From: Odontesthes bonariensis
Lineage: Eukaryota > Chordata > Actinopteri > Atheriniformes > Atherinopsidae
Reading direction: 5' to 3'
DNA: 64,000 nt
NCBI RefSeq assembly: GCF_027942865.1
Contig: NC_134526.1
Coordinates: 9,456,284 to 9,520,283, forward strand
The translations under genes were made by a program, and so were the position numbers. Positions 15,571 through 53,860 of the stretch are shown piece by piece (within the stretch, counting starts at the first letter, position 1; each line of letters begins with the position of its first letter). Under the pieces are notes generated by a model, which saw only the letters and a list, made by a program, of their open reading frames with translations, ran no database searches and was not told where the DNA came from.

Positions 15571-17466
15571 TCACTGGGGCAGCTGGAACAACGTGCCCTG
15601 TCCGGAGGGCAGGTAAGTGACATTGCGGGAGCGGGACAGCTGGAAGGCGATGTCTTCTGCTGCTTCCAGCTTACGTAGCTCTACCAAACCATCACCAGCA
15701 TCCATCAGAGAGTTAGCAATGAGCAAGGCAGCCTGAGAATCTCCCTCTGCTGAGATGATGGCAGCCTGCTTCTGTTGCTCTGCCTAAAAGAATGAACGGA
15801 AATATCACTGTTATGTTTCCACTTTAAGTTTTAAATGCACCAGTAGCACAGGGAGGACATGCAAGTTAAAAGGAATACCTTTTCCACAACAAAACGGGCC
15901 CTCTCAGCCTCCTGCTGGGCCACCTGTTTCATCTCAACGGCCTCTGTGAATTCCTTGCCGAAGGTCAAGTGCGTCTAAAAGAACACCAACACTTTTTTTT
16001 GTCCAAAGTAAGACACAACCAATAGGATAACAATGGTGTGTTGGAAAACTCAAACAGCTTCATACCAGTGAAACATCATCCAGGATGAGACCAAAGGTGT
16101 TGGCTCTTTCTGTGAGGTCCTCACTGACCTGCCGAGACACGAGCTCTCTCTGAGTGATGAGCTCACCAGCATCAAACCTAGCCTGTGAGAAGGAGACATG
16201 CAGTGAGTCACTTCATTATTCAAAAGAGGAAAACGTAATACTTTTACTGTTGGCGTGATACTTACCACTACAGCCTTTAAGACCTCTGTGGTGATGGATG
16301 GTAGCACCCTCTCATCATAGTCCTCACCAATACTGGTGAAGATGCGTGGCAGCTGATTCGACACCGGACGGAAGAGGATACGCAGTGTGATGTTAACGTT
16401 CTGCAGATCTGCAGGAAAAAAGGTTCAAAAGTTACTTGTATTGTGCATAATTTGCCCACCAGTGAAAGGAATCATTTACACGTGTACATTAGCAATTTTA
16501 TCTTTACAGTTTGCATTGTTTACATAAATATTGTAACTACATGCAGAATAATGACATTTGGATTATAAACTTTATTGGTATATGAGAAAAACTAAAAAGG
16601 AACAATCAAAGTCATGGAGCCAACTGAGCCCATCCTATTGATTTTTAAAAGACAGAACATGCATGAGCAAAAGCAGAGAAAAATGCATTATTTATGTACC
16701 TTTGCTGCCTGTAATAACGGGCACATTACGTGGACGGGAGCGACAATCAAAGATAATGGGCTTCTGGACCCAGGGAATGAGGAAGTGGGTCCCTTCACCG
16801 ACAACGGCATCCTGAACACCTCGGAACCTGTCGAATATTACAGCCCGGTGCCCTGCATCAACTGCAGAAAGGAGGATAGTCACACATCTAATATACAGTG
16901 TACACAACTTAAGAAAAAAAGATGTTGCTCTCATTACAAACCTTATTATACTTTAGCTCAAGTATGATGAGGGTTAACACAAAGTGTGTAGTGGTGATAG
17001 ACTGATTTATCAAATAATTAATTAGGCTAATAATTATCTATTTGAAATAAATGGTATCAGTGCATCTACCCAAGGCAACTGAATATTAGGATAGTAAATA
17101 AAAAAACAAGAGCAGATATCTTCTTTGAAATAAAAACAAAAGTATTTAAAAAAAAAAACAACATTTGTTTATATTTAAAATAAGTATCCTGCAAAGTTGC
17201 ATGAATGTTTATTCAGGCTCAGCGATTTTGTGTCTGTTTACTATCATTAATTTATTACTACTAACACTTACATATGCTGTTATATTATCTAAATAAGAAG
17301 CCAATGGAAAAACCCCTAAATAATCCCAGTCACACGACAAGACTGCATCATTTACGTCTTGTGCAACTGTCCAATACTCACCATTAAAGAGGGCAGAGTT
17401 CACAACACCTCCACCGATGGCAAGGGCGAGCCCCAACTTTCCAATGGACTCAAATAACTTGGCCAT
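15571..17466 (-). CDS. phb: Prohibitin 1
   Basis: Coding exons on the minus strand: 17466-17382, 16861-16700, 16408-16266, 16182-16066, 15974-15879, 15783-15571. Together they give 271 residues, against 272 in human prohibitin, all in frame with GT-AG borders. The protein has the N-terminal hydrophobic anchor (about 2-24, [20 protein letters not shown]), the SPFH/band-7 domain (about 26-187, with [10 protein letters not shown] and [20 protein letters not shown]), a C-terminal coiled coil (about 177-211) and the ending [10 protein letters not shown]...FQLPQ. Prohibitin forms ring complexes with PHB2 in the inner mitochondrial membrane, supporting m-AAA protease control, cristae and OPA1 processing. 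The start codon lies nine bases after an acceptor and has G at -3 and +4. Confidence 0.98.
16862..17381 (-). other. phb: phb intron 2
   Basis: Donor GTGAGT after ...LFN, acceptor ...TTTCTGCAG, splitting the valine codon of VDAGHR. AT-rich with short A/T runs; nothing else seen. Confidence 0.85.
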
Positions 17467-17475
17467 GACAGTAAC

Positions 17476-18020
17476 CTGCAGGTAATGAAATGTAAAACGT
17501 TTATAACCTTTAAAACACAACACTTACTTTACTCCTACGCCATGCAGTGTAAACAACCTAAATCTTTGACGGAGTCATTAGAAAGCCAAGTTAAATCCCT
17601 TCTCTTCAGGAACAGTTAGCTTTGGCCTTGAGTGATGCCAAGGCTGAGGGGAGTAGCCAATTTAGCTTAATGGCTAGCATTAGCTTATCGGCCAGCTGCA
17701 ACTGAGACAAACAGCAAGCCAAGCTGACTAATCTGAGCTCTGCAGCTTAGAGTTTTATCTAGAGTTAAACCACTAGATAAAATATATAAATAAAGCCAGT
17801 GTCAACCAAATCCCGGCGGTATACTGTGTGGAGGTACGCATGTTAGCTTTCATGCATAGTGCCTGCTCCCGTTCATGTTACTCAACTCTTGTGTGCCACA
17901 TTACTGAAAGGTAACACATAATAACATCGCAATATTGTTCTGTCATAGTTTCTATACAAACATTTGGCTAAACAGTTAAGTAATTTCTTTGTTCCGGACA
18001 TACTATATGTCATAACTCAC
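17476..18020 (-). other. phb: phb first intron
   Basis: Lies between the noncoding exon 1 donor (CTGAG|GTGAGT, exon edge at 18021) and the acceptor CCTGCAG before 17475. It contains a TTAGC/GCTAGC-rich patch at 17606-17700 like the one near the znf652 promoter. Confidence 0.7.
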
Positions 18021-19009: not shown

Positions 19010-19023
19010 AGTTTCACTTTCCC
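19010..19023 (+). promoter_or_regulatory. Interferon-stimulated response element (ISRE)
   Basis: AGTTTCACTTTCCC fits the ISRE consensus AGTTTCNNTTTCNY at every defined position. It sits about 70 bases upstream of the inferred exon 1 donor of the DTX-like gene, a typical distance for ISGF3/IRF-driven genes. A GAS-like TTCCTTGAA is found at 19201-19209 in the first intron. Confidence 0.65.
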
Positions 19024-19993: not shown

Positions 19994-22900
19994 ATGGCAG
20001 AGCCTGGTAGGACTGTGAGGGTGAGTGGTCTTCCCACAGACATTGAGGATGACAGGCTGAGGGACAAGTTATCCATCCACTTCCTCCGAGCCAAGAATGG
20101 AGGAGGGGAAATAGATTCTGTTATCCTCATCAAGGCAACGCCCGCCTCAGCCCTCATCACCTTCGAGGACAGCACAGGTCAGCGGAGTCAAGCTGTGTTC
20201 ACATCTCTAAATTTGAGGTGTAGGGGAGTGGGATTCCTCTCTTAAACGCACTCTTTAAAAAAAATACTCTTTACTATACGATTATACTGTCTGTAATATC
20301 ACCAGGTCTAACAATATTGCAGAAAATGCCTCCTAACTTTCATCCTTTAGACCACAAATTGTAGTTGCATTTATTTACATAGTATTAGTAAGATGTTGCA
20401 CTATGTCTGCAGTCACCGGTGATTTATACTGAGCTGGAATGCTGGCATGCAAGTCAGTGGAGCGGCCAATGGCAGAAACGCTTAGTCAGGATGCTTTACA
20501 GACTCTGATTGATTTCCCTCCAATGACCTCTCTTACACAGTGGCACAGAGAGTAGTTCGACGCAGCTGGCACGTTCTTGACGTGGATGGGAAGAAGTATA
20601 AACTCACTGCAGTGGAGCATTGTGAAAGTTTGGATCCAGATCAGGTATGTTAGCTACAATTTTGCAAAATGTGGCAACACATGTTGAATTGTATAGAAAA
20701 AATTCCTGAGTTTTGGCTGTTTTTTGCTGTCATCTTAGATCATCTTAAATTTAACAGCAACTGTTAACTATAGCCAGCTTCCTGGCGGAGTCAACGCATT
20801 GACGAGCCTTCATAAGAGCCACCGTGACGTCCAGATGAACTACACTGCTAACAAGGGATCCTGCACATTGCACGGCTCCTACTCCAAAGTGCAGGCTGCC
20901 TTGGCTCAACTGCTTGGTCACCCAGCAGGTCCAGAGTCAGCAAACAACAGTCACTCAGATCGAGTTGACCCAAGTAGTTCCCAGTCTGCTCAGCCATCAC
21001 AGAAGCCTTGTACTCCAGGGTGTGAAGATCAGAGTAAAAAACCTAACCAGCAAAGAGAAAAAAATCCCATTAGCATTCTATCCGATGAGTACATTTCAAG
21101 TTCAGAAAGAGATCTTACTCCTGGTGTTCATGGCTGGGAGGATAGCAGACACACAGACAGCGCAGCTCTGCATCCCCCTGCCACATCCGTAGAGGACTCC
21201 TCTCTAATTGTGGATGCAGACATGTTCCACTATCTGCGAAAACACTGCGGCAAGGAATATCAGCATATCCTCAGTCAGTATGGTGTCGAGGTGATAGATG
21301 AGACAAATCAGGGCTTGACCACTTTGTTTTTCCATGGCGCAGAAACAGCAGTGATGGATGACGGCAGAGAGCAGGAGCGCTTGAAGCTAGCAAGAAAGGC
21401 GATAAGTCGGCTTTACCAGGAGAATGAGAGCAAGATCCGTCGAGCCCAGCTCGCAAAGGCTATTCTGTCCCCCAGAGGAGGACTGCAAAGGGCACTGCAA
21501 AACTTAAGTGTCAGATTTCCCAAGCTTCTTCTGAACGAAGATGAGAAAAATATTTACATTATTGGGTGCAGCAGTGACGTGTCCGAGGCCAAGACCTCGC
21601 TTCTCCTGGACCTTGATGAAGTGAGACATAAAAAGGAAGATGTGTATGATTTTGGGTCATCATTGACCTATGCTGATGAGCAAAGAGTCCCACACCCGAT
21701 GCATTCCACTGTAGGATCCGTAGATCCTGAAAGGACAGATCAGATGGTGGGGTCAGAGGAGGACGAAATGAGAGCTGGAGGAGGTCGAAGGTATAAACTA
21801 GCTGCTCGGTTTAAAGATTCAGGCCTGCCTGCATTAGGCAGTCGACCAACTGACTTCACCTTTCGAGCAAACTCATCGCCCAGTCAGCAAACGCGACTCG
21901 GGCCAATGCGAGGGCATGATGTGCTGGCAGAAAAAGCGGGGACTTCTGCTGAAGCAGTCTCCAGAGCAATACCCCAAAACACAGGAGGGGACATATTGTT
22001 TAAAACTGGATATTCGTTGCCTCCATTCACCCTCATGCAGAGTAAGACCTCTTCCAATACAGATATGATGGATACTCGACCCAAAACTTCAGCATCTCCT
22101 CATTCCAGTTTGTCAGGGAGCTCTGCGCTTCCACCTGCTGGGTCTGGATCCACCTTGAGGCGAGCCAGTAGTTTCTCAGGAACACCTCAGCAGAAGGCTC
22201 AAGTTGTGGGTCAGAAAAACCAAGATGATTCCAGCCAGTCCACAGTTAGAACCAGGGTGAGGTCCTCTAGCTTCAGTGATCAGATGGGAAGGAACGGGCA
22301 GGAAGTCCATCATGCAGAGATCTCAGTTTCCCGGGTGATGTGGTCGTACATAAACGAAGCCTACTGCACCCGAGTGGAAGACCTAACATCTGATGTCCTG
22401 ATGAAAGACAGCTACACAGAAGGTAGTAAGGATCTGATCGTAACTATAACAGGGGCAGACTCATCTCGAGTGAGGTCATGCCAGCAAAGTTTACAGAAGC
22501 TGGTTGACTCAGTAGGCTTAGACTTCTCTGTGCAGGAGCTGCGCCTGTCAGAGCTGGGTGTTACTGACGAAAAAGATGAAACCTTACAGGCCTGTTGCTC
22601 TGAGATGAAGAGCCGCTTCAAGAAAGTTACGGTTCAAATCTACAAGAAGAGCTTATATCTTCTTGGGCCACAACAGTTGTGCTCTCAGGTTGTTGCTACA
22701 CTGCGGGAGGTGTTTTCAGGAGACGCTGAGCAGCAACACCTCTCCAGCCCCTCTTCTTTTTTAAGGAACTCGCCCACTTCTTCACAAATGAATATGGTTG
22801 AAAGCACTTGCCTGGATTTTAACAGTAATTCAAACGTGGTGCTCGGGACTCAAACAGGCAAAAGTGCGACGAGCCCGGAGTGGAAAACCACCTACACAAG

Positions 22901-24395
22901 TGACTTTTGTGAGAAGGAGGGTGTTAACGGACCTATTAGCCAGTCGTCTGTGAGGAAGGACTATGTCATGAAGGAGAAAGTGAAGATTGCAAGTACAGTG
23001 GAGGTGGATGGACACAAGGGGGGCAATCAGTGCGTAAACAGAAATAATACAAGTACGAGTCCTGTGAATGGTATAGAGAAAGAGAGAACCACATGTGCTC
23101 CCCAGACAGACACTACAGGGCAGAACACTCCAGGGGAATCCAGGTCAGGTCAGGGAGGCTGGGTGAGCATCTGTGTGTGTGGGGAAAATGGGACAGCATT
23201 GATGAGGACAAAGTGCGGGGCAACCATGTGCCCTAAGTGCCTGGAAACAGTACATGCCAAATGCAAAGTTTGTCACGAGACGGAGCCGATGCAGCGAGGC
23301 ATCCAGGGCGACATCAAGAAATCTCGACTGAGCATCAGTTTACCAGGTCACAACAAGGACTGTGTTATCAAGATCACTTACCGCATCCCTGATGGTATCC
23401 AAGGGGTGAGTGGCTTACTTAAAACTTACTCTCAGGGACAGATGTAGTTATATCTGATACAGCCTTTCACTTTCTACCATGGTGACTTTTAAGCTTTTAC
23501 CTCAGAAGAGTGTCGATGAGACAAAAAAGGCTGCTAAAGTAGCATCTGTTGGGTGTTAGTCTATTGTTTTAATTGCTCTGCCACTTCACAGAAAGTAGTA
23601 TCACTCCGTGCCAGACCTTGAATATGTAGCTTTTATGTAAAGGGAAATTAAATCTCTATGCGTGGACTGTTCATTAGTAAGATACACATGTCATTTATAC
23701 TTGAGTTGTAGATAACTCCTACGAGATGTCAAGATCGATTTAGCAAACGATAGTGATACATGTTGGACTGGAAACTGATAATTTATTGTGGTGTGCAGAA
23801 GATTTTAGTTATGCAAGAAGCTGAGTCCCAGTTTTGCTTGCACTCATGCCTCCAATGAGATCTGCAAACATTAGACCATATAAACTTGTTTATTGTCAAA
23901 ATACAAATTAGTTGCAGTTGCACCTCACATTGTACAGAGGTTTGATATAAAGCTATATGAAGGTGAGTTTATGAAATATAATCTTTCATTTTGAATTTGC
24001 TTTTTCTAATTAGGAGGGTCACCCATCTCCTGGAAAACCGTTTAAAGGAGGGGTATTTGAGGCCTACCTCCCCGAATGCGAGAAGGCAAAGAAGCTGCTG
24101 CCCAGACTGGGGAAAGCCTTCAGGCAGGGACTCACCTTCACAGTGACAGGCACAGACACAGAGGCCAGAGTCACCTGGGACTGCATCCCACACAAGACCA
24201 GCTTACAGGGAGGCAAAGCAGAGTGAGTGAACCCAGGCCGAATGTCCATCTGGGCTGCAGAACTAAAGGTCACAAATATTAGTCCACAGATCTGAGCTGA
24301 ACGATTGTCTTTTCATTTCTTTCAGGAAAGGCTATCCAGACTCCACTTATCTGACGCGCTTATCGGAAGTCTTGAGCAATCATGGCATTGAGTAG
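19994..24395 (+). CDS. NID/RRM-like, KH-like, degenerate RING and Deltex C-terminal domain protein (DTX3L-related)
   Basis: Coding exons: 19994-20177, 20541-20644, 20739-23405, 24014-24222, 24326-24395; all joins keep frame, giving 1,077 residues. Residues 1-96 (RTVRVSGLP...RDKL...GGGEID...ALITFEDS) look like the NMI/IFI35 domain and RBM43. Residues 254-401 (VDADMFHYLRKHCG...IYIIGCSSD) also resemble RBM43. A Ser-rich linker is followed by a KH-like block (about 622-757). Residues 908-941 are RING-like but degenerate. Residues about 960-1077 are a Deltex C-terminal domain with HPSPGKPF, IPHKT and GYPDSTY. DTX3L with PARP9 joins ubiquitylation to ADP-ribosylation in interferon and DNA-damage responses. 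By analogy this is a candidate cytosolic or nuclear ADP-ribosylation/ubiquitin factor. Orthology is open: the position matches IFI35, the C-terminus DTX3L. Confidence 0.85.
20178..20540 (+). other. Intron 2 of the DTX-like gene
   Basis: Donor ACAG|GTCAGC, acceptor TCTTACACAG, splitting a valine codon inside the N-terminal RRM/NID-like domain. Nothing else seen. Confidence 0.85.
23406..24013 (+). other. Intron 4 of the DTX-like gene
   Basis: Donor GGG|GTGAGT and acceptor TTTTCTAATTAG, phase 0, between IPDGIQG and EGHPSPGKPF of the Deltex domain. Reading through it would add only a dozen residues before a stop, so a retained intron would remove most of the Deltex domain. Confidence 0.85.
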
Positions 24396-29956: not shown

Positions 29957-30181
29957 TCACTTCTCCTCCTTCTTTGCCTCTTCCTTCTTTTCCTCCTCCT
30001 TCTTCTCCTCCTTCTTCTCTTCCTTCTTCTCTTCCTTCTTAGGCTCCTCTTTCTTCTTGTCATCTTTCTTCTCCTCCTTCTTTCCATCGTCCTTCTTCTT
30101 GTCATCTTTCTTCTTCTCCTCCTTCTTCTTGTCCTCTTTCTTCTCCTCCTTCTTGGCCTCCTCCTTCTTTTCTTCCTCGGG
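29957..30181 (-). repeat. vat1: Coding AAG/GAG/GAA repeat for the VAT1 Lys/Glu tail
   Basis: The last 73 codons are AAG, AAA, GAG, GAA and GAC with a few Ala, Pro and Gly. On the plus strand this appears as a TTC/CTC-rich tract, which creates long spurious antisense open frames. Confidence 0.9.
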
Positions 30182-33100
30182 CATTGGCTCTGTGGTGAGG
30201 ATCACTTTGCCGATGTTGTTCCTCTCCTGCATCTTTCTCATGGCGTCGCCAACCTGGAGGAGGAACAAAGAAAGATGGGATAAAAGAGCAAAAATGTGAA
30301 GAAACAATTCCACAACGATATCTGTTTTTTTTTTTTTAATTTTTTTACTGTCAAAACCCCTAATCTTCCCTTTAAATTCAGCAGCGTAGAAACAAATCTT
30401 CAAGGATTGTCTTCAAATATCACTTTAATATGCAGTATATGAGAAATTATGTTTACATATATGAGACTTCAATAATCTTTCAGGGGAAATGAAATTATTA
30501 TAGCAGTGCACAGCAAGCAAAAAGTGGTGAAAAGATGACAAAACAAATGAAAGGAAAACACACAAAGCCAACAGATGAAGCAGAAATCGTGCTTTTATTT
30601 TCCATAATTTTATTTCACATCCAAACGCTGCCAAAAGTGCAAGCCACTTGGAAGAAAACGCCTCTAAAAGAAAGTGTGCACTTTGAGTTAGGGCAGATAA
30701 TAACTCAGATGCAGTTGCAGATTTCCTGGAAACTGAATGATGGAGGGAAACACTTGCTTTTGAATCTAATGGATGATGGATTTCATAGTCATTTACAGAT
30801 TCATAATTTCATTTTGAAAGTCTTTAATGCTAAAAAAACAAAAGTATATTTGTCTCATACTTCTGTTGTTGCAGTACATGTGGTCACCTTCTGCTGAAAA
30901 ACCTGCTCTTTCACAGCTCAGGGTGCCCCACAGTAGCCTCTTGGAAGGCATCTCACGAATGGGTTTCATTGTGATATTATTGTGACATTGTGATAGATTA
31001 TTGTAGGAAGCAAATGACTGTCCATGAATTAGGCATTTTAAGCCATTCAGCAGCAGTGTTTTCTGTGAGGAGGATGTTACTCTCATTAGTGTGAACTTTG
31101 GACACTACGGATCTGTTACACTCACAGAAAGCTAAAAGCTCCCCAAAAAACAAAATATGACCTCTTTAAATCAGCAATTATAATTCTATTCAGGCTTTTA
31201 CTGGACAGGCTTATCAATAAGATTTCAGAAGTGTAACACCATTTGCCCTTTTTTCACTGATACACTGAAGAAAACCACAACAAATGAATCAACCAATAAA
31301 CTTGCCATTAAATAATATCAAGTCTTTTTTGTTTTTTTAAAGGTGGATTCATGTTGACATTTTAATCACCTCTCATGTTGTGGTAGCAAACCCTCTCCAA
31401 AAAAGAGGAAGAAATTGAGGGTCCTTGTTCAGTGCAAATAATAAATTGAAATTTTAAGACGTGCACTGCAAAAATCCTGGTTCATGTTATAACCAGCCAC
31501 AAAAGGTTAGGGATGAGGAAAAGAGTTGTATAATCCAGATTGCTGACTACATTTAAGAATGAAGTTTTCTCAATAATCAGTGACACACTGCTTTAAGGCT
31601 ACCATAGGCAGCAATGTGAATGCAGAAACATGTAACCCTATGCTTTCAAAGGTAAACTCTTATCAAGTGAGCCTCCACAACAGGCACGGCACTTACTGCG
31701 TAAGAATGTTAAAAACTGAAGTGATGTTTATCCCTGAATATCTCTGTCCAAACTCAAAGATTTCTCTCCAAATTCCAGGCAAATAATTTACAGACTCTCC
31801 TTTAATGACAACCCCCAAACCCCTACACAGTAATGGATCAACCAACTGCCTCTCCATCATAATGAAGACTGGAGGATTCCAGCCAAGACCTACCCCGCCC
31901 TCCTCTTGACCACTGAGCTCTGTCCACTGTCTGTTCCAGTCTCCATCACATCCCCCTCCTGCTTTCTTCAAATCCCCCTATTTGTGTGAGGCAGGCAGAC
32001 CACCTAACGACCAATGCCACGGCAACAGGGCCATCTCCTAGCAACGTAAAGCCTGGCTGAAACGTGGCTCTGACGACTCAGACACATGGGAAAGAGGGGG
32101 GTGTAGGAGTTCGAAGTGGAGGGAGAGTGGAGAGGAGGAGGCGGAGGGAGCAACTGGTATCCCTCAGATGAAGAACAGGCACTGGAAGGGAGGGAGGGAG
32201 GGAGGGGTGAGTCGAGGAATTATAAGAATCATCTTCAGTGTGAATGAAAGTCAAAGTGAGAGCGTCTCTGCCTCTTTTATCAACTCCACCCACATCCACC
32301 CTCCACCCTCCACCCTCCACCCTCCACCCTCCACCCTCTAAGATCTGACATCCTTCCTGGCTCCCAGGCATCTTGGACAAGATTGCGCTATTTGTGGCTC
32401 CTGACATGACCATTATCATCGTGAGTGTTGGTGCAGATGTAGAAAATGAATCTGCACGAGGAAACAGTCATGCTAATTTCAAAATTTTGCTCAGGTTTAT
32501 TGATTTGTCGAGCAACAGCAAAGACTGACTGGGGGGGGGGATGGTTTTGACGAATGGGGTCAGGGTGTGGCATTTGTTCTCAGGTCATAATAATCGATCC
32601 ACAAGTCCCCAGGAGCTTTTTGTCTTTGACGCTACCACAAGCAGCAGCCTCTACGCTTGCGGACATCAACCCAGAACTTTACACCATGAACTGCTCCAAA
32701 GACAGACTGACATACACCTTCATCTCTCCTCTGCATCTCCACACTCCTTCCATGTCTTTCTCATACATCAGGGCCCCTCCCTGAGACAGACGCACATGCT
32801 GACTAAACGATGTCACCATAGCAACAAGAGAGAAAGAGCAAGAAAGATACACTGTGAGGAGGGAGAAAGAGAGAATAAAGCTAGATAGAGAGAGACAGAG
32901 AGTGACTCAATAACCTAAAGACGGAGAAAAAGAATCTAATATAAAGAGCAGACAGATGGAGAGGCAGAGAAAGAGCGTCAGATGGCGGAGAAAGACAGCG
33001 GGTGTTTCTCTCCGGCCACAATCACACAGCCAAAATACTGACCAGCTCTGACTTTGACAACAGAAGATATCAGCCTCTGACGCTCCCTTTCTCTATGTGT

Positions 33101-36100
33101 TTTTCACACTCTTTCTTTATTGGCAGTGTTAATTTTGTCAGCAACAATCTGAGTCTGTCGGCCTGCTACAAGAGACACAGAGCTTCTTGTGAAGTTGCTT
33201 GTTTTATGCGAATCTCGGGGCCACGCCCAGCTGCGGAAAAAACCCACCACAAGACAAACACAGACACAAACCCACCTGGTATTCATATGCTCTCTGGGTG
33301 ACTGAGTTGTAAGCGCTTGTTTCATGGAAAAATGCATGTAATTCAGGTGTAGAAGCACCTAAGTCACGGTGGATCATCTTGTCATTCAAACTGATGTGCA
33401 CAGTAATGGATTTGGTCACATTAATAAGCTAGAGTAAAATGGATGTGAAATTCAAATACAGACCAACAAAATTGCTTTGGAGTATTGATTCAGCCATGAA
33501 GAGCATTAAAACATGTACATCCCCCTTAGTCAAACAGTGACTGTTTACCCATTTTTTACGTTAAGTTCCAGCTAGTTCAGTCTGCTCTAATTAGTGTGCT
33601 ACATCACCCGAATCAATCTGCCCAACATTTTACATTAGCTTTACTAAAGTTAAAATTTTTTTTGCTAAAAAAGTATTTCATTGGCTAACTTTAATTGTCA
33701 CATTCTTTTTTTTGGTCATTTGCTACAACTGAAACTGTCTGAAAAGGAATAAACAAAATGTTTGTTTGGCTCTTTCTAATGCCCCTTATGTGAAATGTAA
33801 GATAATTCTGTGCCTGAGCGTAAACAACCAATAAGGCCCAAACTAAATCATTAACTGGTGTCAATAACTGCCACTTCTGCAGTTGCCATGGTGACTTGCC
33901 AGCGCTTGCGTGTCAGCCTTAAATTAAGTCCACCCTCTTTTATTTTTAAACCAAGTTCTGCCTTGATTACTTTACCCTACAAAAGTAAATACATAAACAG
34001 AATAATTAAATACAGTATGCCCATTGAAAAACATTTTATATGTAATTTCAAAACATTTTATTTAATTTCTTTTAAAATATGTTGGTTTTACTTTGGTTGG
34101 CGCAGTAATGCTCCGTTAACTATAAGATGCCAGTGTCAACTATACTTATTAATCTTTTTGTCCAGCCCAATCCGTAATTCCAGGTGTAAATGGGAGAGCA
34201 GACAGACACAAACCTGCTCAAGATGCCAAGTGGAATCGATGCGGGGTTTGATTTTGCCCTGTTTGTACAGATCCAGAACGGTGTCCATAGCCTGGGTGAT
34301 GAGCTCCATCTCCCCGTCCAGGTAACCTAGGTGAAAGCCACACACCGACTTGTTCCCCTGGATCAGGCTGAGTGTGTGGATGGAGAACTGATGGTACCAG
34401 TTCTTGGCCACGGCAAGCAGGTTCTTCCTCTGGCCCGCCAGCATGTTTGCCGCACCTGAGAGGAAAGAGGGTCGAAAGACAGGGACCCTAAATCTTCTTT
34501 ACTTGACATCGTGTGTCTCTAGTTCATTTTAAGACAATTTACAAGCTGAATGAAAAGGTGATATATCTATATTAAATTCTGTGAAGAACCTCTGGTTCTT
34601 TATCCCACCTCTGTCCTCCTGTGTTCTCACACTCTCACTCTGTCCCTTCACCCTAAAAACCTATTTCGCACATCAACTGTCTGTCACCACATCCCCTTCC
34701 AATTCCCCCCCTTATGTGTTCACATAGCTGCCTCTTATCTCGATGTCAGTCTCTCTCAGGGGAAACAGGGGACACAAAGCGAGCTCTGAGAGAACAGAGG
34801 GACCCAGCCTGCAACATTCAGACACATTCCAGGTTTTTTGTGGATAGAACGCCCATTGTTCCACCATGCCTACTTCTGATAAGCTGGAAGAGAAGCAGCC
34901 GGCACAGAGGGACCAGAGAGGGTGAATGGGTGAGGGTGGAGGGCACCATGCTGGGTAGTAGGTTTCTGAGTAACACGCAAAGGCAAGGCCCTGTTCTCCA
35001 TGGATGCCGACCCTGCCCACTGCATGTATCCAGATCGGTATTGTAACAGAGAGAGCGTAAAAGGGCTTCCCACGGAGGAGATGGGCCTCCACAGAGAGGC
35101 CACTCTGCACACCAGTTTTACACTGCGGCAAGAGTGAAGCCCAAAATTTTTACAGAGTCTATTGTATGCATCTACAGCTTTCTGTAGATCTCGGTGTAGC
35201 TAAACTTTCTTTCTGATAATTTCAATATGTAGCTAATGTGTTCCAAGAAGGAATTTCTGCCCAAAGATTGGGTGTCCCACCAATTTGTGTAGCACTGCCA
35301 ACGAGTTTGTGGGCTTCAGCGTTTCTTTTCTGGTATTTAAAAGCTGATAATGGCTGCAGGTCTGTTAGAGAGTTCAAAAAGAAATTTGCTCGTGCAAGTT
35401 ATTAGGAGATAATTAATTTGTTTTGGCTTGTACGAGTGGTCTTGATTATAATAGAGCAGGAAGTTTTCCAGACAGGGCATCTTGTATGGGTGGGTGTCTT
35501 ATATCAGTAAAAACAGTAAGAATTCTGAAAACTATCACTGTTCTCTCAGTGACAATTGCTTTTTACTTACCATAAGTAATAAGTTTGCCCATCGGCTTCA
35601 GCAGGTTGTAGGCCTTATGGGTGTCTGATCCTCCAAGAGGGTCCAGTATTATGTCCAGCCCTGAAGCAGAAAGAAGGGGAGGCAGTTATCACTATTGTGT
35701 ATTCAGAGTATTTGTGTGTGTGTATTCAGTCTGCCAAGTGTCCTCAGTGGCCCCCTTTGGATGCCAGAGTTCACTAGGAGCAGCGAGTGTAGCCAAGCTG
35801 CCATATTTACATGAAGGGGAGCCAATAAAGGAGGACAGGACGAAGGTAGTACAAGATCCTTCTCGTTTTATATGTTTTTACTCTTGTGACTCATAAAACA
35901 AGAGAGATAAAAGGTCTCTGTCATTCCAGAATAACAAAACAACATTTGAACAGATGGTTAAGCACAGCAAGCTAACCAAGAAGGTTTCTTTGTGGGATAT
36001 TAATGTCCAGCCATGTAGGCTCAGGCTTAATAATGTGCCTTTGTGCCAGAGGGGGCTCCTTAAATTGTTTGCCCCTCCTTGCTCTGTTGAACCCTGGTTC

Positions 36101-39100
36101 TATTGATTGTAGGAGGCTCACAGCAGGATTCTGCCTTCACCATGGCACAGATGAATTGACAGAGAGCCAGAGATAGAAGGATAGGTAGTGAGCAGGGCTG
36201 CACATTGATCCTGGCTTCTAATTAGATACATTCTGTCTAAAGTGTCACTTCTCGCTTTCGACGTATCCATCTCTGTAATGTTTGCCTGTCTCACCCTATG
36301 CTACAAAGGACAGAGACGGGTTGAAGAGGGGACTATGAAATGAGCCTCCGGCATAATAAATTTGTCCTAGGAACACAGCAGTGAGTGAAAAGGATAAACA
36401 GGAACTGGACATTGTTTAATTTAGCTGAAAAGCAGCATTTTAGCGCACTTTTTAGCAGAGAGCCCTTATACACAAATCTCTAGGGCTACATTATTTTTGG
36501 CAGTAAGACTCACTGTTTCGAGAGGTAGCTTTGTTTGGTAGCAACAGTTGTCAGTTTGGTGCATGTTGCAGCCAGCTTGGCGAAGAAATAATGAAAATGT
36601 ATCATCTGTTTGTCTGCAGTTTATTCAACACATCAACAAATGCTGCAGCCATACATATTGATCTGAACAATGAGTCTTATGAGACACTCACTGAACAATA
36701 AGCACAGCGCTACAAACCCTCACTTTACTCATGGCTGTAGAAATTATTTGATAGTATTTACAGTGACACGTTGTTGACACTAAATCCAAATTTGAATCAC
36801 TTCGTCATGGCAGATGGCTTATTATCTGACCTTTTGGACTGATCTTGCGGACTTCTTCCACATAGTCCTTGGTGCGATAGTCGATGGTGTGCGTCACTCC
36901 ACCCTGGCTGATGGTCTCATGTTTGCTGGCTGATGCAGTGCCAAACACAGTCACATCCTTCACGGTCTTGCACAGCTGAGTTGCAGCAATGCCCACACCA
37001 CCTGAATGAAGAGAAGGGTTAATACGTGGAAAATGTAAGGGTATGACTTCAAATGTAAACAAGCTATCAACGAGGATTTATGCCGAACCGAATATAGTCC
37101 CAGGCGACTCACACCAAATGGAATTCAACTGAAATTCCCATTAAGACACATATTTTCAATGGCAGGTAAATGTGATTTGCATTATTTATTGTCCAAAACA
37201 AGTAAGTCAATGAAACGGTGGATGTGTTTTGCTCAGGGGTATGTCAGGAGCGTATTAAACACAATCACATTACCCCAGCTGGCCAGGGGAAACAGAGTCC
37301 CACACACGCACAGACACACAACCAGCTCTGGAGAAAGTAGCCATTGTCACCCAATAACACAATCCATTTTTTTGGTTTCCTTTGCAAAGACAACCTAAAT
37401 TCCACAAAAAACACAAATGCAGCTAAAATGTCTCCGAAGAAAAATGACAAAACAAATCATCTAAATACAGTGTCTAAATACATGACTTAAAATACAAAGT
37501 AGAAGTTCTGAATATCTGGGTTTTTGTTCAATTTAGATGTACATAGTTGTGGCAAAAGCCTAAGCCAGTGTTTGCTGAGGGAGCCAGTGCAAGAAGTAAT
37601 AGGTTACTGATCAGCAGTGGCTTGTTTGAAATGCAGACTGACTTGAGGGCTGAAGCTGAAAGGCATCCATAAAGGTCATTCATGCCTGACCAAGTAAAGA
37701 GTACATGTTATCTGATGCATGAGAATAAGGAAACAGAAAGCAACAGGTGATTTTTCAATAACATTTGTTTTTAATGGCATAGCTGGCCTATTAGAGAGGT
37801 TTAAAGTAAAATAATGATTTACTTGCTTACATGTCTTAACCTATTCAGAATGCACAACAATTAATAATCAAACAGACAGAAGGTTCATTTCATTAGAATT
37901 ATGCAAGTGACCATACAGGGCATTTCTGATCTGTGGAATCAATTTCAGTCAATATTTTTCTATCTTTATGTGCTGTAAAGAAGTGCGCTTGAGCTTCATG
38001 TCTTGCAACAGACTTTAAACCCATTGGATCTCGATGCATTCTATGTGTATAATATCATCTCTGTGCCAGTTGCAAAGGGAGAATGTAGTGCATCAGATGA
38101 CACTGGTGAACATCTTGTCCCTTCGTTTAAACATTACATTTTTTCTGAGCCACTGAACCTGTCTAACAGCACAATGTCCTCAACTGCAAACTGGCAGCTT
38201 TTCTCTGTGGCTGGACTATCACACTAAAACAGAAAAATAGTACTGACACAAGCCAGAAATAATTATCTCCATGCAAGAATCACTCAGCATTAAAACAATA
38301 AAATAAAAAAAATAATAAAAAAAAGGATATTTTTATCATTTATATTTCTATATACATAAAATTGTGTATTTTGTGGATTAAACCCCTTCAGAATGTTTTC
38401 TGTTTTGAGGTGTTTATCTGTCAGCTTAAGCCCATGTGAGACAAACCAGCCAGTCTGCATTACTATAATCACCCCTGCTGACACTGAGAGTAGAACTGAT
38501 GAGAAATCAAAATCAAGGCTGTTGCTGTTGGATGTGAACGCTGTCGTGGCTGTGTTATAACAGCAACCATCTCTCTTTGTTCTCAGTGAGAAACCAAGTT
38601 TGTGTTGCCAAGGTAACCTCAGCCAAATTGCCAGCAATGACTAAGCAACGGGAGCCATTTTGTTTCATTGACTGTTCTTCCTTTGGTAACAATTGCAAGT
38701 TTGTCATCAGTTTATGTTTGACATATACTGGATCTCATCTTCCTCTTAGAGGCCACCAGGCATTTGATAGGAAGCTGCAGGTGAGCATATGGTCCCCCCT
38801 TCCCCGGTGAAATTATATCAAACAAACAGGGCTGATTCTCTTTAAACACACTCATCTCTTTAATCCCGTATCTTTTTACACATGCAAACTCTGCAAACAA
38901 AAATGTTTGCTTTTGGTACACAAATACCTGCGGAACAGCCCATGTGATGTAGAGGAGAAGACAGAAAAGAGGTGAGAAATGTTAAATATGCATTGTCTGA
39001 GTGGGTGGTTTAAAGGCTGTTTAACTAAATGGCTCTGTCACATAGTAGCAACCCTCACACACAGGTGTTAAAAAGTGTCCAACACAATGATGCATCCATT

Positions 39101-42100
39101 AATCCCACATTTACACAAGCATGCACTTGCATATTAATATTTAACTAACGCTGCTGTCATAAACACTGATTTCCCCTCTGTTGCGTCATCATGAAGAAAG
39201 TGTTGTGAAAACAACAGCGGAATTGACTTATTATTTTTACTCGTACTAAATTAAGTCTAAAAAAAATTCCTCTCCAAACCGTAAATCTTTATTTGGCAAA
39301 TACAGAACAATGAAGTCATTATATAATCAGATATGTTATGAGAGGGTAAAAATGTGTTTTCAGTCAAATGCAAGAGGGTACCTGTTTCTGAATTCCATGA
39401 GAACAAACTCCTGATCTCCCATCACAAGACCCTTGAGCTCTGCCAAGAGCCCCTTTCTGCACCCCACCTCAGATCACACACATCCATACGTACATAGATC
39501 ACAAAGGAGAGAGAGCTGTAGACTCGAGCAGTTCAATTTGCTGCTGGTATCTGCTAATCTGCACAAACACGCAAAAGATTAAAATATTAATCTTTCATTA
39601 ACCCTTAGTTCCTGGGCTTCCTTGGTTTCCCAATTTATATTTTCTCCAGTTTTTCTACTTTTTTCGGACCTGAACCACATCTCTTGGGAGAGTTTGACAT
39701 AAATACTTTGTGAAGAAAGAGCAGCTTAAGCAAATTCTTGCTGCTAATTGCATTTGTTCTCAAGATTCAATTGAATTGTTTACACATGGAAATAAGGACA
39801 TGTCAATAAGACATCCTCCCATCTGCTCAGTTTCACTCTCTCTTCAGAGACACAAGATACACAGTAGGGTTTTGTCTTTCCCTGAAATCCTTACATTCTC
39901 GAATTTTGGCACAAATTGCACTTGCATAACATGGCTGTTAGAAGCGAAGAGGAATTTTCTCCCAAAAACACAGAGGAATCCAGACTGACAGTGAGGCTAC
40001 TATTATTGCTCCACGCCCAGAGTTAAACGGCAGGGGTGGGTGGGGACATCAGGAATGGATGTATTAAAACATCTATCATGACAACTTTATCTGTCTTCAT
40101 CGTATCAATAAACACAATCTCACATCACAGTGACTGCATGAGCCAGGCTACGATCTCAGGTGTTAGTTAGGGGATGGATGGTGGCCATATGGTAACTGTC
40201 AACACCAGAGGATGACTGGTCCCTGGTGTCCGAGCTCTGTGTTGTATTTTCTTTCCTGGGATTTCTTTGAAATATTTTCACATTTCCTCAAGGACTCGTA
40301 ACTTTCCTAACCCATCATTACAGAATATCCTGTGGTGTTGGCTGACAGAGGGAAATACAAACATGGAACCAAGCGTTTCTTTTTACCCAGAGTCACCAAA
40401 GCAAAGTTACAACATCAACAGCACACAATTTTGTTGCCACTTCTGAAACAAAGATATGAGTCCTGTAACAACGAGAGGAGCTGTGGTTGGCTGCTTGTAC
40501 TGTTGAGGTGTGTGTGTGTGTGTGCGTGCGTGTGTGTGTGCATACACACTGTGGTTTTGAAGTGTAGTTTAATGTGGTGAATTTTAAAAAGAAGGCAATT
40601 TTTAGTTGCTGGGAGAGTAAATTTGCTCATGCGTGAAGGAAGCCCATGTGATTTCCTGAATAAGAGATCTCACAGTGCTAAACACAAATAAAACCACCAA
40701 ATACTGATTACATGATATGTATCTACATAGATAAACACACACGGAAAAAACTATTTCCCGTCTTAAACTAGAAACAGAAGCTAGTGCACACAACACAGAT
40801 CCATATGCAAAAGCAGGTGTCCTGACAAAGGGTTCACGTACACCTGCAAGTGCATGCGGTAGCTGGGAATGGGGTGGGGGGTGGGGTCATTTGTCAACGG
40901 CTGCAGCGATGAGAGTGCAAACAAGCAATGCGATTGGCAGGTTATATTGGAGGTTGCCCTGGTTTCCTTCTACTATCGGTGCAGCTGAGCTGCCGGCAGC
41001 GATGTCAGGCCTGAGGAACGCAGAGACGGTTCAACCGCGCAGCCCAGACTCCCGCTCAGTGGTCAGAGTGAATTAGCTTTCTTTAAACTAGGGTAAGACC
41101 TCCTGAGCAGATATTCTGATTGGAGTAGAGGGAAAATCACTTTAAAAGTGCAGACTTTTAACATGGCTCAAAAAACCCTCCAGAGTTGTAAGTACAAATG
41201 ATCTAATGTTCAAACAGCAGAGGAGTAAATAATGAATGAGCAATCTGGGAGGGAGTCCAGGGAGAAGCAAGATACACGGAATAGAAATAGTTATTTCTGT
41301 TCTTATAGTTTAAAAAGAGTTTATTGCAATGATCCGACCTCAAGGACATCATTTTGCTCGGAATTTTTCTTTTTCACTGAAGGCAAATACGCCTGAGGCC
41401 CTGTCTGCAAGTGCGACAGCAATCATAAAGATCTACACCAGGATGAGATTCTCATTCACCACACCCAAGAGATCCAGCCACCTGTTTCACTCGCTTCAGG
41501 CATTTAGAGTTTATATACAGCAAGACTTTGGCAGATATATTTAAAGCTGGAAATGTACCTTTTCTGGAAAACACAGCAAATAGAATTATACTGGTCATCA
41601 AAGTTCCTTCAAGTGTTTCTGTGTTCTGCTTAGAAAATGTAACGGACAGCTGGAAGGCTTCAAAAGCAGCACTAAATATGACAACTGAGTTAAACATAAT
41701 CTGTTTTTTTCATTAGTCATAACAGGAAACATTGAGCACAAGAAAATCCAACCAGAGAGCTTCACATTTTGTTACTAACACAGACCAGAGTCAGTCAACG
41801 GAAGAAGCTGTGTTTTGAAGAAAGTTTTAAACAGTCATATTATGGTTATAAATTTAAACGATCCAGGAGAGCACTTCATTTTGGTGTTGCTCAGCCTTGC
41901 AGATTAATACCTTTAACAAGAGTTTAACTCTAACTGTGACTGCTGCCACCCTTCACACTCAAGGTTGGATTTCACCCACATGCAGCAGCTGGAAGCCTCT
42001 TACTTTAAGTCTTGCCAGTTAATCCTCAGTTTAACCTGGTGTAACTCTACATTGTACAAAGACACTCCAAGAAGAAGCAGCTGCTGAAGTATGGAAGCCT

Positions 42101-45100
42101 CCATAATTTGCTAGTAGAATGAATAAAAACGCACACCCCTAAAACACACTACCGCAAAGCTTTATTGAAAGGAGATGATTTATAACTTGTGCTTAGCAGA
42201 CCAAAGCAGGGTTATTAGTAAGTGTATGATTTTTACAGTATGGGAGTTTAAATTGTGGTATTGTTGGTGCCAAAATGTCAAAGTCTTGACCTGAAGTGGA
42301 CACAAGCTCCTACAGCACCACCTAATCATATTATGCATTCCAAATCTGCAACACAATGCATGACACTTAATGTTGGAAACTCAATAGCTCATAAATAAAA
42401 CCGAGGTAGACGTCATCGTTGTAAGCAGCGGAGCCCCATATGTATGCAGGAATGTGTAGTGTGGGTGTGGTGGCTAGTTGGCTGGCTGAGGTTCATAAAC
42501 ATTACGACCAGTTCAGGGAGAGGTCAGAGGAAGGGCAGTTGGCTGGGTACAGTAGAAGACCCACGAGATACAACCAAATGTCGCAGAGCTTCCCCCTCCA
42601 CCCAAACTCTCTGGGGAAAACAAAAGGGGAAACGTGCGCGCGTTCCCCGATGACGAGGGCTACAGCACGGATATGGCGAGGTCACACAGAGGGATAGGAG
42701 GTTATGGAGGGCCGGAGGGGGAGGAGGACAACGGAGGATGCAGATGTGCAGTGGAGAGGAGAGGCACGATGGGAGGAAATACAACAAGCTATTGTTTTGG
42801 AGAGAAAGGCCAGGAGTGGAGCCACGAGAGGAGCAGCTGAGGATTATTCACCAGCATTTACGTACACACACATACATACATACATAACACCAGTCAGGCA
42901 TTCTTTATTGGTCACCTGATCATGATGGGTAAAGGTCACCATACTTTTGAGGAAAGGATGCTCTTTAAATTGATGTGACATAACCTGCAACCATGGAACA
43001 ATGGAAAAGCAAAAGGCAATAGAATGGCCATCATCACTCTTTAAAGGCCCTCACTACAGAGCTCAACAGGATATTTGCAGTATAGATCTTTACTTTAGAA
43101 GACCTTATAATACTTATTGTTGCTGTCGTAAGTGTGACCAGCAGCTAAGTTATGCTCTTACTTCTGTCATTAGTCTTCACTCCAGCTTTAGTTAATGCTA
43201 TCAAATTGTGAGAAATGCGCATATTTACCTCAAGTTTGGTGAGAAGACAGAGCTCTCAAATGTAGCTGAAACGTAGCGCTAGTTAGCTTAGCATAAAAAA
43301 AGCCTCCTTCTGTCCAAAGATTGTGTTTTTTATAATTTCAAATGGAAACCATTGACTTTATATTAGAAATGTTCAAGTTTTTTTAGGACCTTTTTTCATC
43401 GTGGTCTATGCACCAGGTTTTCTTCTTCATTTGTCTTATCTGTATATATCGCTAAAAGAACTTTTGTGGATATGCGTACAAAGAGAAAACAGAGGAGACT
43501 TTCTATCTCTGCCTTTTTGTTGGGAAAAAAGTGAGACTGCTTTCAAATTCACAATATTAAGATGCATGTCTTGACAGAAACCTGTTGATGATATCGTTAA
43601 ATAAAAATCCCATTTATAATCAATTCATAATGAACTATCTATTCAACTAGAGGCTACAGGGGATTTGGGAGAACAGAAATCTTGAAGTAATTGAAAGAAG
43701 TGTGATTAGTTTCCAAAAACAGTTAAATCAGTGGATTAAATTTGTTATAGAAAAACAGGTCAGCCATAAAACAGAGAGAGGATGAATGCCGAAAGCATTA
43801 AAAGCCAAAGAAAAGAATCACAGTCTTTGGCTGCTGATATAAGAAGCTGTTGATCTAGACCTTAAATGAAAATCACACTGTTCTAAATCATAATTATCGC
43901 TGGACCTTGGGACCAAGGATATAAAACAAATTTTTGCCTGTGTTCACTAACACATTTACTCCCCATCCAGACAGATTGCTCCCAGATAACCTCATGTATG
44001 TGCTCACTATTTTATCTTTGCTCAACATACAGTGATATAGAGTTGAGTATGAGTTCAGGCATGCAGGGCACACAAACGTACTGCTTTTTAGTTGGATGTA
44101 CAACTCACTGATGCAACCATCAGCTGCTAAGTCCTGAGACAGTCTAATGAGTTGAGGTAAAGCATTTCCTCACATAGCTAATACTGTATGTGGCTAAATG
44201 GGGTGTGTATGAAGTGGTGAGCGGTGATGAGTTGTAACAGAGTTCTTGTATTTACTTGTAATTGTGCTTTCATGTCATTGCAAAAATTTTATTTACTTTG
44301 ACTCAATATGTGAGAAAGGGAGACAAACTCTTGGAAAACTGTTGTTCAAAAACAAGAATTTTTGCTGTGGAAATAGTGATGGCGTTCCACATCATCATGT
44401 GATACTTTTTAAAGTCAAATAAATAGTCTGACGCAACTTCAAAGTAAGCACAGGGAATAAGAGAATCATTATTGAGCATGGGTAATACTTTAGATCAGCA
44501 GCTTGAAACCAGTGGGTTCGGAAACCCCCATTGCGTCTAAAGGGGGAAAAAAAAGCAGTTATGCAGTTTATTGAGAAACTGTGACATTTTCCAGAGTAAT
44601 GCTGGATATTTTCCATCTATGCTCAACAGCATTGATGGCATATATCAATAGATGCTTGAGTTGGCATCTGCTTACCATGCATATGTGTGACATGAAGATA
44701 TTTTCGGTTTCAGCCATAAAGGAAATTCATAATCATTTTTGGTATCATCATCTGAGGTTAACTCAGTCAACTTACCTTTGTCACTGGCAAAGTTAAACAA
44801 TTATTGGTGGCTCTATAAAATGTTAGAAAACATTTTGTTTTTGGTATCAAATTCATAATGATTCATAATTATGGAAAAAAACACCTAATCTTTATATTTG
44901 TGAGGCTGTAACTGGTGAATGTTGGAAATTTTTTAATGATAAAAGACTTAATTATATTGACTATAAGAATCTAATGCCTGCCTTGTTATAATAGGGTTAA
45001 AATCACCAGATCCTGTGGTGGAATATGTTTAGAAAGGAATATATAAAATATTGCCTGAAATATCTTTCATATTATTAAAACATATCTGACTTGAAAGAAC

Positions 45101-45235
45101 AGCACAGACTGGCTTATGCCCCCACCCCCCTCACTCTCTGGCCCTGTCACAGCAGACACCTTTGATCTGTCTAATCATTGAACATCAGGAACAATTCGAC
45201 AGCAGACTCCTGGTAGGAACAAACCCCCCACACAA

Positions 45236-45285
<50 letters not shown>

Positions 45286-48200
45286 AGCATCCAGCACCAT
45301 GTGAACCATGGAGCCCCACAATGAAGGCAGACAATCAAGAGAAGGGTGTGCACATCTTGCACATTTTATTCACAAAAGATACTGCTGCCATTCTCAACAA
45401 AGCTCAAAATGTCACCAGAGCATGTGTTGTACAGAGTCCCGTATAATAATTATTTACACATGGAAAGAATCCAGGCGTGACTGCTCAGAAAAAAGATTTT
45501 TGTCATAGCCTCAGTAATGTGCTTCGACAATGCTGATGTCCGGACAGCTGGCGAGCAAAGACTGGCAGCCTGCCCTGAGAAATGAGAGGTGCTGCCTCGA
45601 CTAAACCGGCAGGGAAAAGTGTCTCGAACCACATTTCCACAGCATTCCTCTTATAGCAAACATACTCTGCACAGAAAACTTCGAGCAGCATGTGTGCTCA
45701 CTGGGGTGAGTGACATCAACAGGATGATATGATAAAGGCAAACATTTGGGATTCCTCTATAGACCAACAGTCCCACAGCTATGAGCCTGTTAGCTATTGT
45801 TCAGCTGCGCGCAACTACTTACTCTTACAAGTCCATTCATTTTCAGTGCTAATGTCAAGGGGATATATACGCACCTGCGCTGGCGGGCTCCCAGAGCTCA
45901 TTGTTATTTTTTGTCTCCAGAGAGAATAAGGCCAGGTTTCCTTATGCACTGAGCCATTAACACCCACATGCTGTCCCAAATGCAGAGGATCCATTTCTAG
46001 ATCCCCCTACCCAGGAAAAGTAGGAATGAGAGGGAAAGTGAGGGCTGTACACCAGCAGATAACAAGTGGGAACAATTTCTTTTGGCAAATGCGCCATTGC
46101 TCTTTCCAACTGGCCTGACTGTGTAAACACAGCAAAATCAAATGCTCTCAGGCTCGATGCATCCCGCCCCAAAGCAGGTGCCTTTGCTCCCTTAGTCCTC
46201 ATCTTTTTCCCACCCACTCACTCTGATCTTAGACCTCACAGTCCAGGTGGCAGGTGTGCTAGCATTGGTGCAGTCCTGGTGCAAGCTGAGCTACATCTCA
46301 CACAAATGAAGTGGGACCTTCTCGAACAGTCATAAGTCATCTGGACAAACAATGCATGAACAGGAGGAGCTGAGAAGGAAGTCCTCATTTTCATGCCTGA
46401 AAATAAGCTTGCTGTTTCTCCTTTTTTTTGTGTGTTTTTGAAAACTATTCAAAACTATTCCTTGTAGCAAGACTTCCAAATACCAAGTCCAGTTTTGTGG
46501 CTGCTATAGTGTGAAATTTACTGCACAGTTACAGGGAAGCTTCCCACGGAGAGAAACTGAAAACCACAGTTTATCAGTTTAGGATTAGGATGTAGGATTT
46601 ATTTTCATATTTCCCTATAATGGGACTCACTGTTATCTAATGCCACTGTGAATTAACTATTAATCAATGTATACTTTGTCATATTCCCATTTAGGATGAA
46701 TAATTCAAAGAATTTCTGTTTGTTCCCTGTGTGCATGTGCTGTGTATGTGTTGGTACCTGCAGCAGCATGGATGAGGACGCTCTGGTTTGGCCGCAGGTT
46801 GCCAAAGTCAAACAGCATCATGTAGGCAGTGATGTAGTTGACAGGGAGGGCTGCTGCCTCTTCAAAACTCATCCCCTCTGGGATGAGGAAGGTGTGGCTG
46901 GCTGGCACCACTGCCACCTCCTGCCACAGCCCAAAACGGTTCAGCACCATCACCTTATCACCGACCTGAAACAGAGGGGAATGGAAGACACGAGCTGAGT
47001 GAAAATCAGAAAGGAAAGTACTCTCCACCAAAACTGTAAAATAAATTAATGTCCCCAAGGCAATAATTCTCAACCAGGGAGCTTCAGCTGAAGTCTGTGG
47101 GGTGTACATACAGAACTAAATAAAAAGAATTAAGAAGCAACAAAGGGAACAAAGGAAAACACAGAAAATGAATAGTAAATGGTTGAAAAATAAAGTTTGA
47201 GAAACAACATGGCAACTTACATTATTACACCTTATTTAATGAACACATTTATACCATTGATGGATTGTATTGAAGAAGGGATTCTTGAGTTAGACAGATA
47301 ACAGATTGGGGACTAATGCCCAACAATGCACTAGAAACAGAGGAAAACTGAGCAACTGCCACCAAGCAACTGAGAATCAAGTGAACTTCATAACACTGAA
47401 CCTAAATGAATAGCCAAGGCAACACTAAAACTGATTTTTATATGTGTGTCCTGGTCAGTCCTTTATCTGCGGTACAATGGCAGCATTTTAGCAATGTGGG
47501 CAAATGAGTCTTTAATCGCCAACAGCATTTTTCTGTAACTGCCCGAACTCTTGAGCTGACAAACATTCAAGTTGGAGCTTTTGGTGTCCTGCTATCTGAA
47601 CCTCATGGTGTCTGTGGTGCAGTGGGAATGATACAAATTATGTGCCTGGAAATGTAAGAATGAGGTTTATTGTTTGGCTTACAACAACAGCAGACATGCA
47701 AACATGAAACCACCTCAGACACCAAACCTCAAAGTGTTCGCCCTAAAAGAATAAAGGCAAACAAGTAAAGCGATAACTGTTCAGGAGGGTAAGAATAGCT
47801 GCAGGGCTTCATGGACAAAAAAACGAGACGGTAAAAGAATCAGGAGAGAAAAGGAAGAGGATCGTGTAAGATGAATATGAGAATTATACTGATGTATGGT
47901 TTGCTTGATTTACATGAAAATACAAGCAAGAAAAGTTAGCAAAAAACAATGAGGAAGTGACGCCCCAAAACTAAATCTGATTTACGATTTTAGGTTTTCA
48001 AACTTTCTGCAGGTTTCAACCTGATGCAAAAATTCTGATCCCCTTGTCCTGTGCTGTTCCCAACCTATCCTTATCAAAGCAGGATCCTCCGATACACAAC
48101 TGTCTCTTTCCAGAAGAATGAGCCATGATTTAAACTTCTCCCCCATCCCCGAACCAACCAATCAGAAGAACTCACTCGAGGGACACAGGAAACAGAGACG

Positions 48201-53495: not shown

Positions 53496-53860
53496 GGTGC
53501 AGGAAGCTACGAGACGGTGATGAATATAGAAAAAAATTACTTTTCACTACTTGTGAATTTTGCTGCCGTGGCTTGCTGTTTGGCTGCGTGCGCTTGCCTT
53601 GCAAGTCTAAGAAAATGTGAGAGTTAGAGCTTGTTTCTCAGCTGTCTTGGAAGGAGACACAAACCCCGGCAAAGTGGGCTGATCAGTGGCCAGTGACTGT
53701 CAACGCCGCGCTCTGACAGAGTCTGAGTGGGACGAGACAGAGGCAGACTGGAAAACACGGAGTGCTGATGAAATTCAGGGATTGGCTTGTGTGTTTGGCT
53801 GGGTTTGGCTATTTGTATAGCGCAGTAAATGAAGTCCATATATTGCATCAATCAGTGAAG
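53496..53860 (-). promoter_or_regulatory. vat1: vat1 5' UTR and promoter region
   Basis: Sequence just upstream of the vat1 start, which has a good ACC-ATG context. The first exon is GC- and CpG-rich, consistent with a CpG-type promoter. No TATA box was identified and the transcription start was not placed. Confidence 0.45.

Follow-up and report, generated by a model that had tools for sequence, protein, structure and literature searches.

An intact gene, probably of the DTX3L line, with a NID-type RRM and without the Deltex catalytic pair, beside VAT1 in Odontesthes bonariensis

Human DTX3L is described as a chain of an RRM, five KH-like domains, a RING and a DTC domain, the KH domains of which bind PARP9 and PARP14 (PMC11080071, PMC13224862), and its D1-D2 region is reported to oligomerise (PMC10955461). 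Two residues in the DTC domain of the related DTX2, H582 and E608, are given as catalytic and as strictly conserved throughout the DTX proteins, with every substitution tested at these positions impairing NAD+ ubiquitylation (PMC7615817); at the DTX3L equivalents, H707 and E733, the mutation H707A abolished and E733A impaired the ubiquitylation of nucleic acids (PMC11460948). NMI and IFP35, for their part, associate via their NIDs, and their induction in fish is reported (PMC13030082). Here we describe a gene on contig C26 (NC_134526.1) of the fish Odontesthes bonariensis, found within a 64,000-nucleotide stretch (C26:9456284-9520283; hereafter the window) and compared with the 945 Mb of the species' own genome. 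It joins an RRM of the NMI/IFI35 type to a Deltex C-terminus, its reading frame is intact, and it has lost two of the eight RING zinc ligands together with the His-Glu pair of the DTC domain; as judged from its sequence, it is probably a non-catalytic DTX3L paralogue that would act as a scaffold or competitor.

The gene is real and intact. Its five exons, read from the splice sites, join in frame on the forward strand into 1,077 codons plus a stop, with GT-AG introns throughout in phases 1, 0, 0 and 2, which bears out the single five-exon gene proposed in an earlier reading of the DNA letters (hereafter the sequence-only reading). Exon 3 lies within an open frame of 902 codons, by far the longest among the 652 frames of 45 or more amino acids in the window. 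The parts of the gene are as follows.

19994..20177, forward strand: exon 1, with the start codon and the first half of the RRM (NID type), ending in phase 1, 13 nt past a conserved Phe codon
20541..20644, forward strand: exon 2, rest of the RRM and linker, up to residue 96, ending in phase 0
20739..23405, forward strand: exon 3, large, residues 97-985, with the KH-like region, the RING-like segment and the start of the DTC domain
20739..20936, forward strand: region positioned like DTX3L KHL1/D2 (residues 97-162; shuffle p 0.26 against human D2, 8r79)
21198..21665, forward strand: likely KH pair of DTX3L type (residues 250-405)
22293..22736, forward strand: presumed second KH pair (residues 615-762), with weak similarity to the first pair only
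23166..23273, forward strand: degenerate RING-like segment (residues 906-941), with CxC for CxxC at the first pair and a zinc-ligand His replaced by Ala
23307..24391, forward strand: DTC domain (residues 953-1076, exons 3-5), with H582 replaced by P (residue 1044) and E608 by V (residue 1070), in DTX2 numbering
24014..24222, forward strand: exon 4, middle of the DTC domain, ending in phase 2
24326..24395, forward strand: exon 5, end of the DTC domain and stop codon
24754..24759, forward strand: polyadenylation signal AATAAA, 359 bases 3' of the stop

Long low-complexity linkers occupy residues 163-249, 406-614 and 763-905. The peptide QNWDSASCITKI occurs in frames at window positions 18487-18684 and 23783-23968, so that this repeat seems to be present upstream of the gene and again within intron 3.

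The Deltex C-terminus recognised in the sequence-only reading was confirmed by a Pfam DTC match of 1.2e-30 (106.9 bits against a cut-off of 25) and by matches in the PDB to DTX2, DTX3L and DTX1, including 3pg6. What that reading missed is the loss of the catalytic residues. DTX2 residues were numbered by counting back from the end of the chain, which gives the same residues as PMC7615817 names. In the alignment, which left out the genome's dtx1/2/4-type genes, the catalytic His is kept in eight of nine other Deltex rows, the exception being a copy on contig C25 (P). The catalytic Glu is kept in six of the seven rows readable among these nine, again except in the C25 copy (I); the C7 and C15b rows entered without their last exon, and the Glu of C15b was read separately afterwards. 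In the RING-like segment two of the eight zinc ligands are missing, no RING family reaches its Pfam cut-off in the window protein, and the C3HC4 spacing that fits all four fish paralogues tested (C3b, C7, C15a and C15b) does not fit the window gene. Because the C3HC4 RING and the catalytic His and Glu both fail, we do not class the gene as a Deltex E3; its ligase end looks catalytically dead, which is new here.

A Deltex ligase that is still active, in which the lost roles pass to a nearby Cys and to the HHKT motif's second His, is decidedly unlikely, even though the frame is intact, the CxC keeps a Cys one residue off and the second motif His is retained, since the RING His to Ala change occurs together with P in place of H582 and V in place of E608, and even the conservative E608Q is reported to have a marked effect (PMC7615817). 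In a tree of the Deltex rows the window gene has the longest branch (1.25 changes per site) and pairs with the C25 copy at 83/90, both on long branches. This branch length, like the lost catalytic and zinc residues, would suit a gene decaying towards a pseudogene with little or no expression, a fate we consider very unlikely: the 1,077 codons run over five exons without a stop or frame break, which disfavours a pseudogene, and the splice sites and polyadenylation signal are in place.

The C25 copy is itself a second degenerate Deltex gene (29286517-29286768 and 29312560-29312775), carrying H582 to P, W578 to P and E608 to I in its DTC domain and showing no RING in the frame ahead of the DTC start; its two pieces lie 26 kb apart, with transposon-like frames in between.

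To place the gene among its relatives, we turned to the other Deltex genes of the genome, where the DTC family gave 27 matches, counted exon by exon, across several genes. One gene of the tandem dtx3l-like pair on C3 and the dtx3l-like gene on C7 were scanned and have RING and DTC matches above cut-off and KH_DTX3L below it, the latter at 4e-5 and 0.021 in the two other dtx3l-like frames scanned. In the C3 dtx3l, the junctions of which were read by eye, an exon with the first half of the RRM has its phase-1 donor 13 nt past the conserved Phe, the second half of the RRM follows and ends in phase 0, and a big KH-RING-DTC exon is then followed by a phase 0 intron after GVQ-x and a phase 2 intron just before GYPD. 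Introns 1, 3 and 4 of the window gene share position and phase with these, the phase 0 intron following GIQ-x or GVQ-x in the two genes; intron 2 lies inside a linker, where it is comparable by phase only, and has the same phase. The C3 RRM exon gave no Pfam match. When the whole window protein was compared by BLAST with 19 genome stretches, no second copy was found there, the matches, in 6 of the 19, being confined to other Deltex genes, either to their RING-DTC region or to the DTC domain.

Since an RRM-KH-RING-DTC order is the normal DTX3L layout and the C3 dtx3l matches exon by exon, there is no need to invoke a fusion. The sequence-only reading had offered a fish-specific fusion as one origin of the composite; a recent joining of an ifi35/rbm43-type RRM onto a deltex gene is unlikely, given that DTX3L itself carries all four parts and that the canonical dtx3l exon layout is identical down to the intron within the RRM.

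The C3 copies, at 20.112 and 20.122 Mb, are near-identical and in tandem, and beside each lies an extra piece resembling a last exon (FGYPDPDGLQRV...), perhaps the trace of a further copy.

At the other end of the protein, residues 5-92 form one RRM, matched above cut-off by the Pfam families NID (7.1e-15), RRM_PARP14_3 (3.5e-8) and RRM_PARP14_1 (1.9e-7) and, in sequence comparison with solved structures, by NMI (8.1e-10) and IFI35 (1.9e-6), the NMI alignment running continuously across the exon 1/2 junction. The likeness to NMI and IFI35 proposed earlier is therefore upheld, as is that to RBM43, with 35% identity between the window RRM and the genome's rbm43-like exon and the same intron donor. 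The NID model matches twice, residues 5-42 aligning with profile positions 52-90 and residues 57-92 with positions 1-36, which we read as a model out of register with the RRM fold. A tandem NID pair was considered and ruled out, the two half-matches making up a single RRM.

The intron within this RRM links several families. In the window gene, ifi35 and dtx3l a phase-1 intron falls at the identical nucleotide, and nmi and rbm43 have it as judged by the donor only (donors were read in all five genes, acceptors in three). In ifi35 and nmi the shared donor is confined to the first NID, the second NIDs having no GTA or GTG at that offset. Elsewhere in the genome, six PARP14-type RRM exon matches stop at profile positions 54-59, approximately the position of the window intron. 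Because the intron lies at one nucleotide in five genes, a common ancestry of the RRM module in IFI35-, RBM43-, NMI- and DTX3L-type genes is supported, and two interferon pathways commonly considered separately, the NMI/IFI35 regulators and the DTX3L-PARP9-PARP14 ADP-ribose/ubiquitin system, appear to share this RRM by descent; that these families have the intron in common seems to be new. The window gene may still have acquired just its two RRM exons by exon shuffling, since the intron is common to all families examined. The idea that the locus preserves an ancestral form gains support for shared ancestry of the RRM module, and fails in so far as the composite is not unusual, being the normal DTX3L layout.

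While profile comparison recovered the expected NID and DTC domains, the KH region between them fell short. Residues 254-381 match KH_DTX3L at 1.9e-4 (21.7 bits, below the cut-off of 27.4), and against the corresponding stretch of the dtx3l-like gene on C7 the segment 250-405 gives a shuffle p of 0.005. A predicted model of this segment has a mean pLDDT (predicted local distance difference test) of 59.7, with 57-84 in the blocks of the first KH; fold comparison returned many KH rows, including KSRP KH3 (4b8t), a structure that has been overlaid on human DTX3L KHL2 (PMC11460948), at a probability of at most 0.97 and E of 0.13 or worse. No Foldseek match reached E 0.001, a designed protein ranked first, and on a second look arginine kinases were tied. 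Taken together, sequence and model make a DTX3L-type KH pair at residues 250-405 likely. Residues 615-762 have no Pfam match and a predicted pLDDT of 38.7, and they resemble the first pair weakly (p 0.03-0.04). Human D2 did not match residues 93-162 significantly (shuffle p 0.26), and the D2 of fish C7 gave p 0.07.

The sequence-only reading had placed the gene at the syntenic position of IFI35, and suggested that it might have replaced IFI35. A search of the genome with the NID family (7 rows, 10 candidates scored, the window gene included) identified three further loci. Two of them are genes with a pair of NIDs, C26:8794100-8794728 (-), which lies 0.68 Mb from the window gene, and C17:1428924-1433134 (+); at the third, C16:18262477 (-), there is one RRM. 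RPL27 was matched at one place (2 rows, 5 candidates), C26:8801865-8803169 (-), with 7.1 kb between it and the two-NID gene on C26. The first NID of that gene matches NMI at 4.3e-8 and IFI35 at 2.8e-6, and its sequence alone does not separate the two; in light of its RPL27 neighbour, and of the human order, in which we take RPL27 to lie beside IFI35, we read it as ifi35. The C17 gene matches NMI only (8.6e-14) and is read as nmi, as its sequence suggests, and the C16 gene, which no database named, is presumably rbm43 from its resemblance. With a separate two-NID gene near RPL27 on the same chromosome, the window gene is ruled out as an IFI35 replacement: it is present in addition to the IFI35-like gene that the species has. 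A separate ifi35 in this species had been named by the sequence-only reading, as the first half of one finding, as something that would tell against it, and the C26 gene, as read here, is one; overall that reading is partly supported.

The first NID exon of the C17 nmi-like gene is flanked by tandem-repeat frames with PTPAKGA and KHLAAMLTSGASNI units (stretch L032: 501-950 and 3' end).

The neighbours of the gene in the window are these.

17212..17523, reverse strand: open frame with the first coding part of PHB1
30000..53543, reverse strand: VAT1, with an approximate lower limit and its last exon identified by eye
53031-53543, 46708-47115 and 34139-34498, reverse strand: stretches holding the first, a middle and a late exon of VAT1
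61549..61716, forward strand: open frame with an RND-family GTPase exon, assigned to RND2 by position only

The proposed synteny holds on one side, VAT1(-) being followed by an RND-type gene (+); the IFI35 position next to RPL27 belongs to the C26 two-NID gene and not to the window gene. Pieced together from separate stretches, with the interval from rpl27 to the flank of the window left out, the order along the forward strand is ifi35(-), rpl27(-), then PHB1(-), window gene(+), vat1(-) and RND(+). A single inversion of the ifi35-to-PHB1 block would restore RPL27(+), IFI35(+), window gene(+), VAT1(-), RND(+), and the window gene may formerly have been the neighbour of IFI35. One could go further and place the origin of the NMI/IFI35 line in the IFI35-VAT1 interval: a gene of DTX3L type carrying a NID-type RRM would once have been IFI35's neighbour there, pointing the same way; loss of the KH-DTC part from such a gene would have given rise to IFI35/NMI (and RBM43); the window gene would be the surviving full-length sister, from which the ligase chemistry was afterwards lost, leaving an interferon-regulated pseudo-Deltex scaffold; and a later inversion would have carried ifi35 and rpl27 to a place some 0.68 Mb off. 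Taken as one joint reading, this is tentative and improbable.

We also looked for signs of interferon control.

19010..19023, forward strand: site resembling an interferon-stimulated response element (ISRE), AGTTTCACTTTCCC (AGTTTCNNTTTCNY), 970 bases 5' of the start codon

This is the sole strict match in the window to what we take to be the ISRE consensus (0.17 expected per window; at least one in 16 of 100 shuffles). Looser ISRE patterns in the window added no support, and gamma-activated-site (GAS)-like sites there equal their expected number.

How such a protein might work is suggested by its relatives. Interferon would induce the gene through the upstream ISRE-like site, and the NID-type RRM and KH-like domains would assemble with the protein itself, with DTX3L, with PARP9/PARP14 or with NMI/IFI35. 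Without E2 activation, and with the loss of the pair that would activate the acceptor hydroxyl, it would serve as a scaffold or competitor, tuning the ubiquitin and ADP-ribose output of its partners. We favour such an interferon-induced, non-catalytic role because of the NID association and fish induction, D1-D2 oligomerisation and KH binding of PARP9 and PARP14 in its relatives.

Among the open-licence PMC papers that our literature searches listed, no title or abstract opening linked NMI/IFI35 or RBM43 to DTX3L by descent. The RRM intron would be a mark of such descent that public genomes allow anyone to verify, and a Deltex relative that is otherwise intact and lacks the catalytic pair would let the scaffold role of DTX3L be studied as a natural separation-of-function experiment. 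The D2 region is said to appear with amniotes and to be lacking in zebrafish (PMC10955461), a view on which an RRM-bearing DTX3L relative in fish bears, D2 being here only positional.

Compared with known systems, the window gene resembles PARP14 in that RRM_PARP14 families match its RRM, and differs in that Pfam, searched up to E 5, gave it neither a macrodomain nor an ART match; a PARP14-type RRM search, exon by exon, did not list it. Like RBM43, which we take to be an RRM protein without a DTC domain, it has a single RRM with a related sequence and the same intron donor, whereas it adds a DTC domain and a KH_DTX3L region. With IFI35 and NMI it shares a NID-type RRM with the GGGE/D signature and the identical intron donor of their first NID; unlike them it has one RRM rather than two NIDs, has KH and DTC regions, and exists in a genome with separate ifi35-like and nmi-like genes. 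In contrast to human DTX3L, described at a locus with PARP9 and PARP14 (PMC11080071, PMC13224862), it sits at vat1-rnd, and it departs from DTX3L in its missing RING zinc ligands and DTC catalytic residues, its RRM of NID type and its long linkers. With DTX3L, human and on C3 and C7, it nevertheless has in common an RRM at the front, a DTC domain at the end and a KH_DTX3L match between them, and with the C3 dtx3l also the five-exon layout with matching introns.
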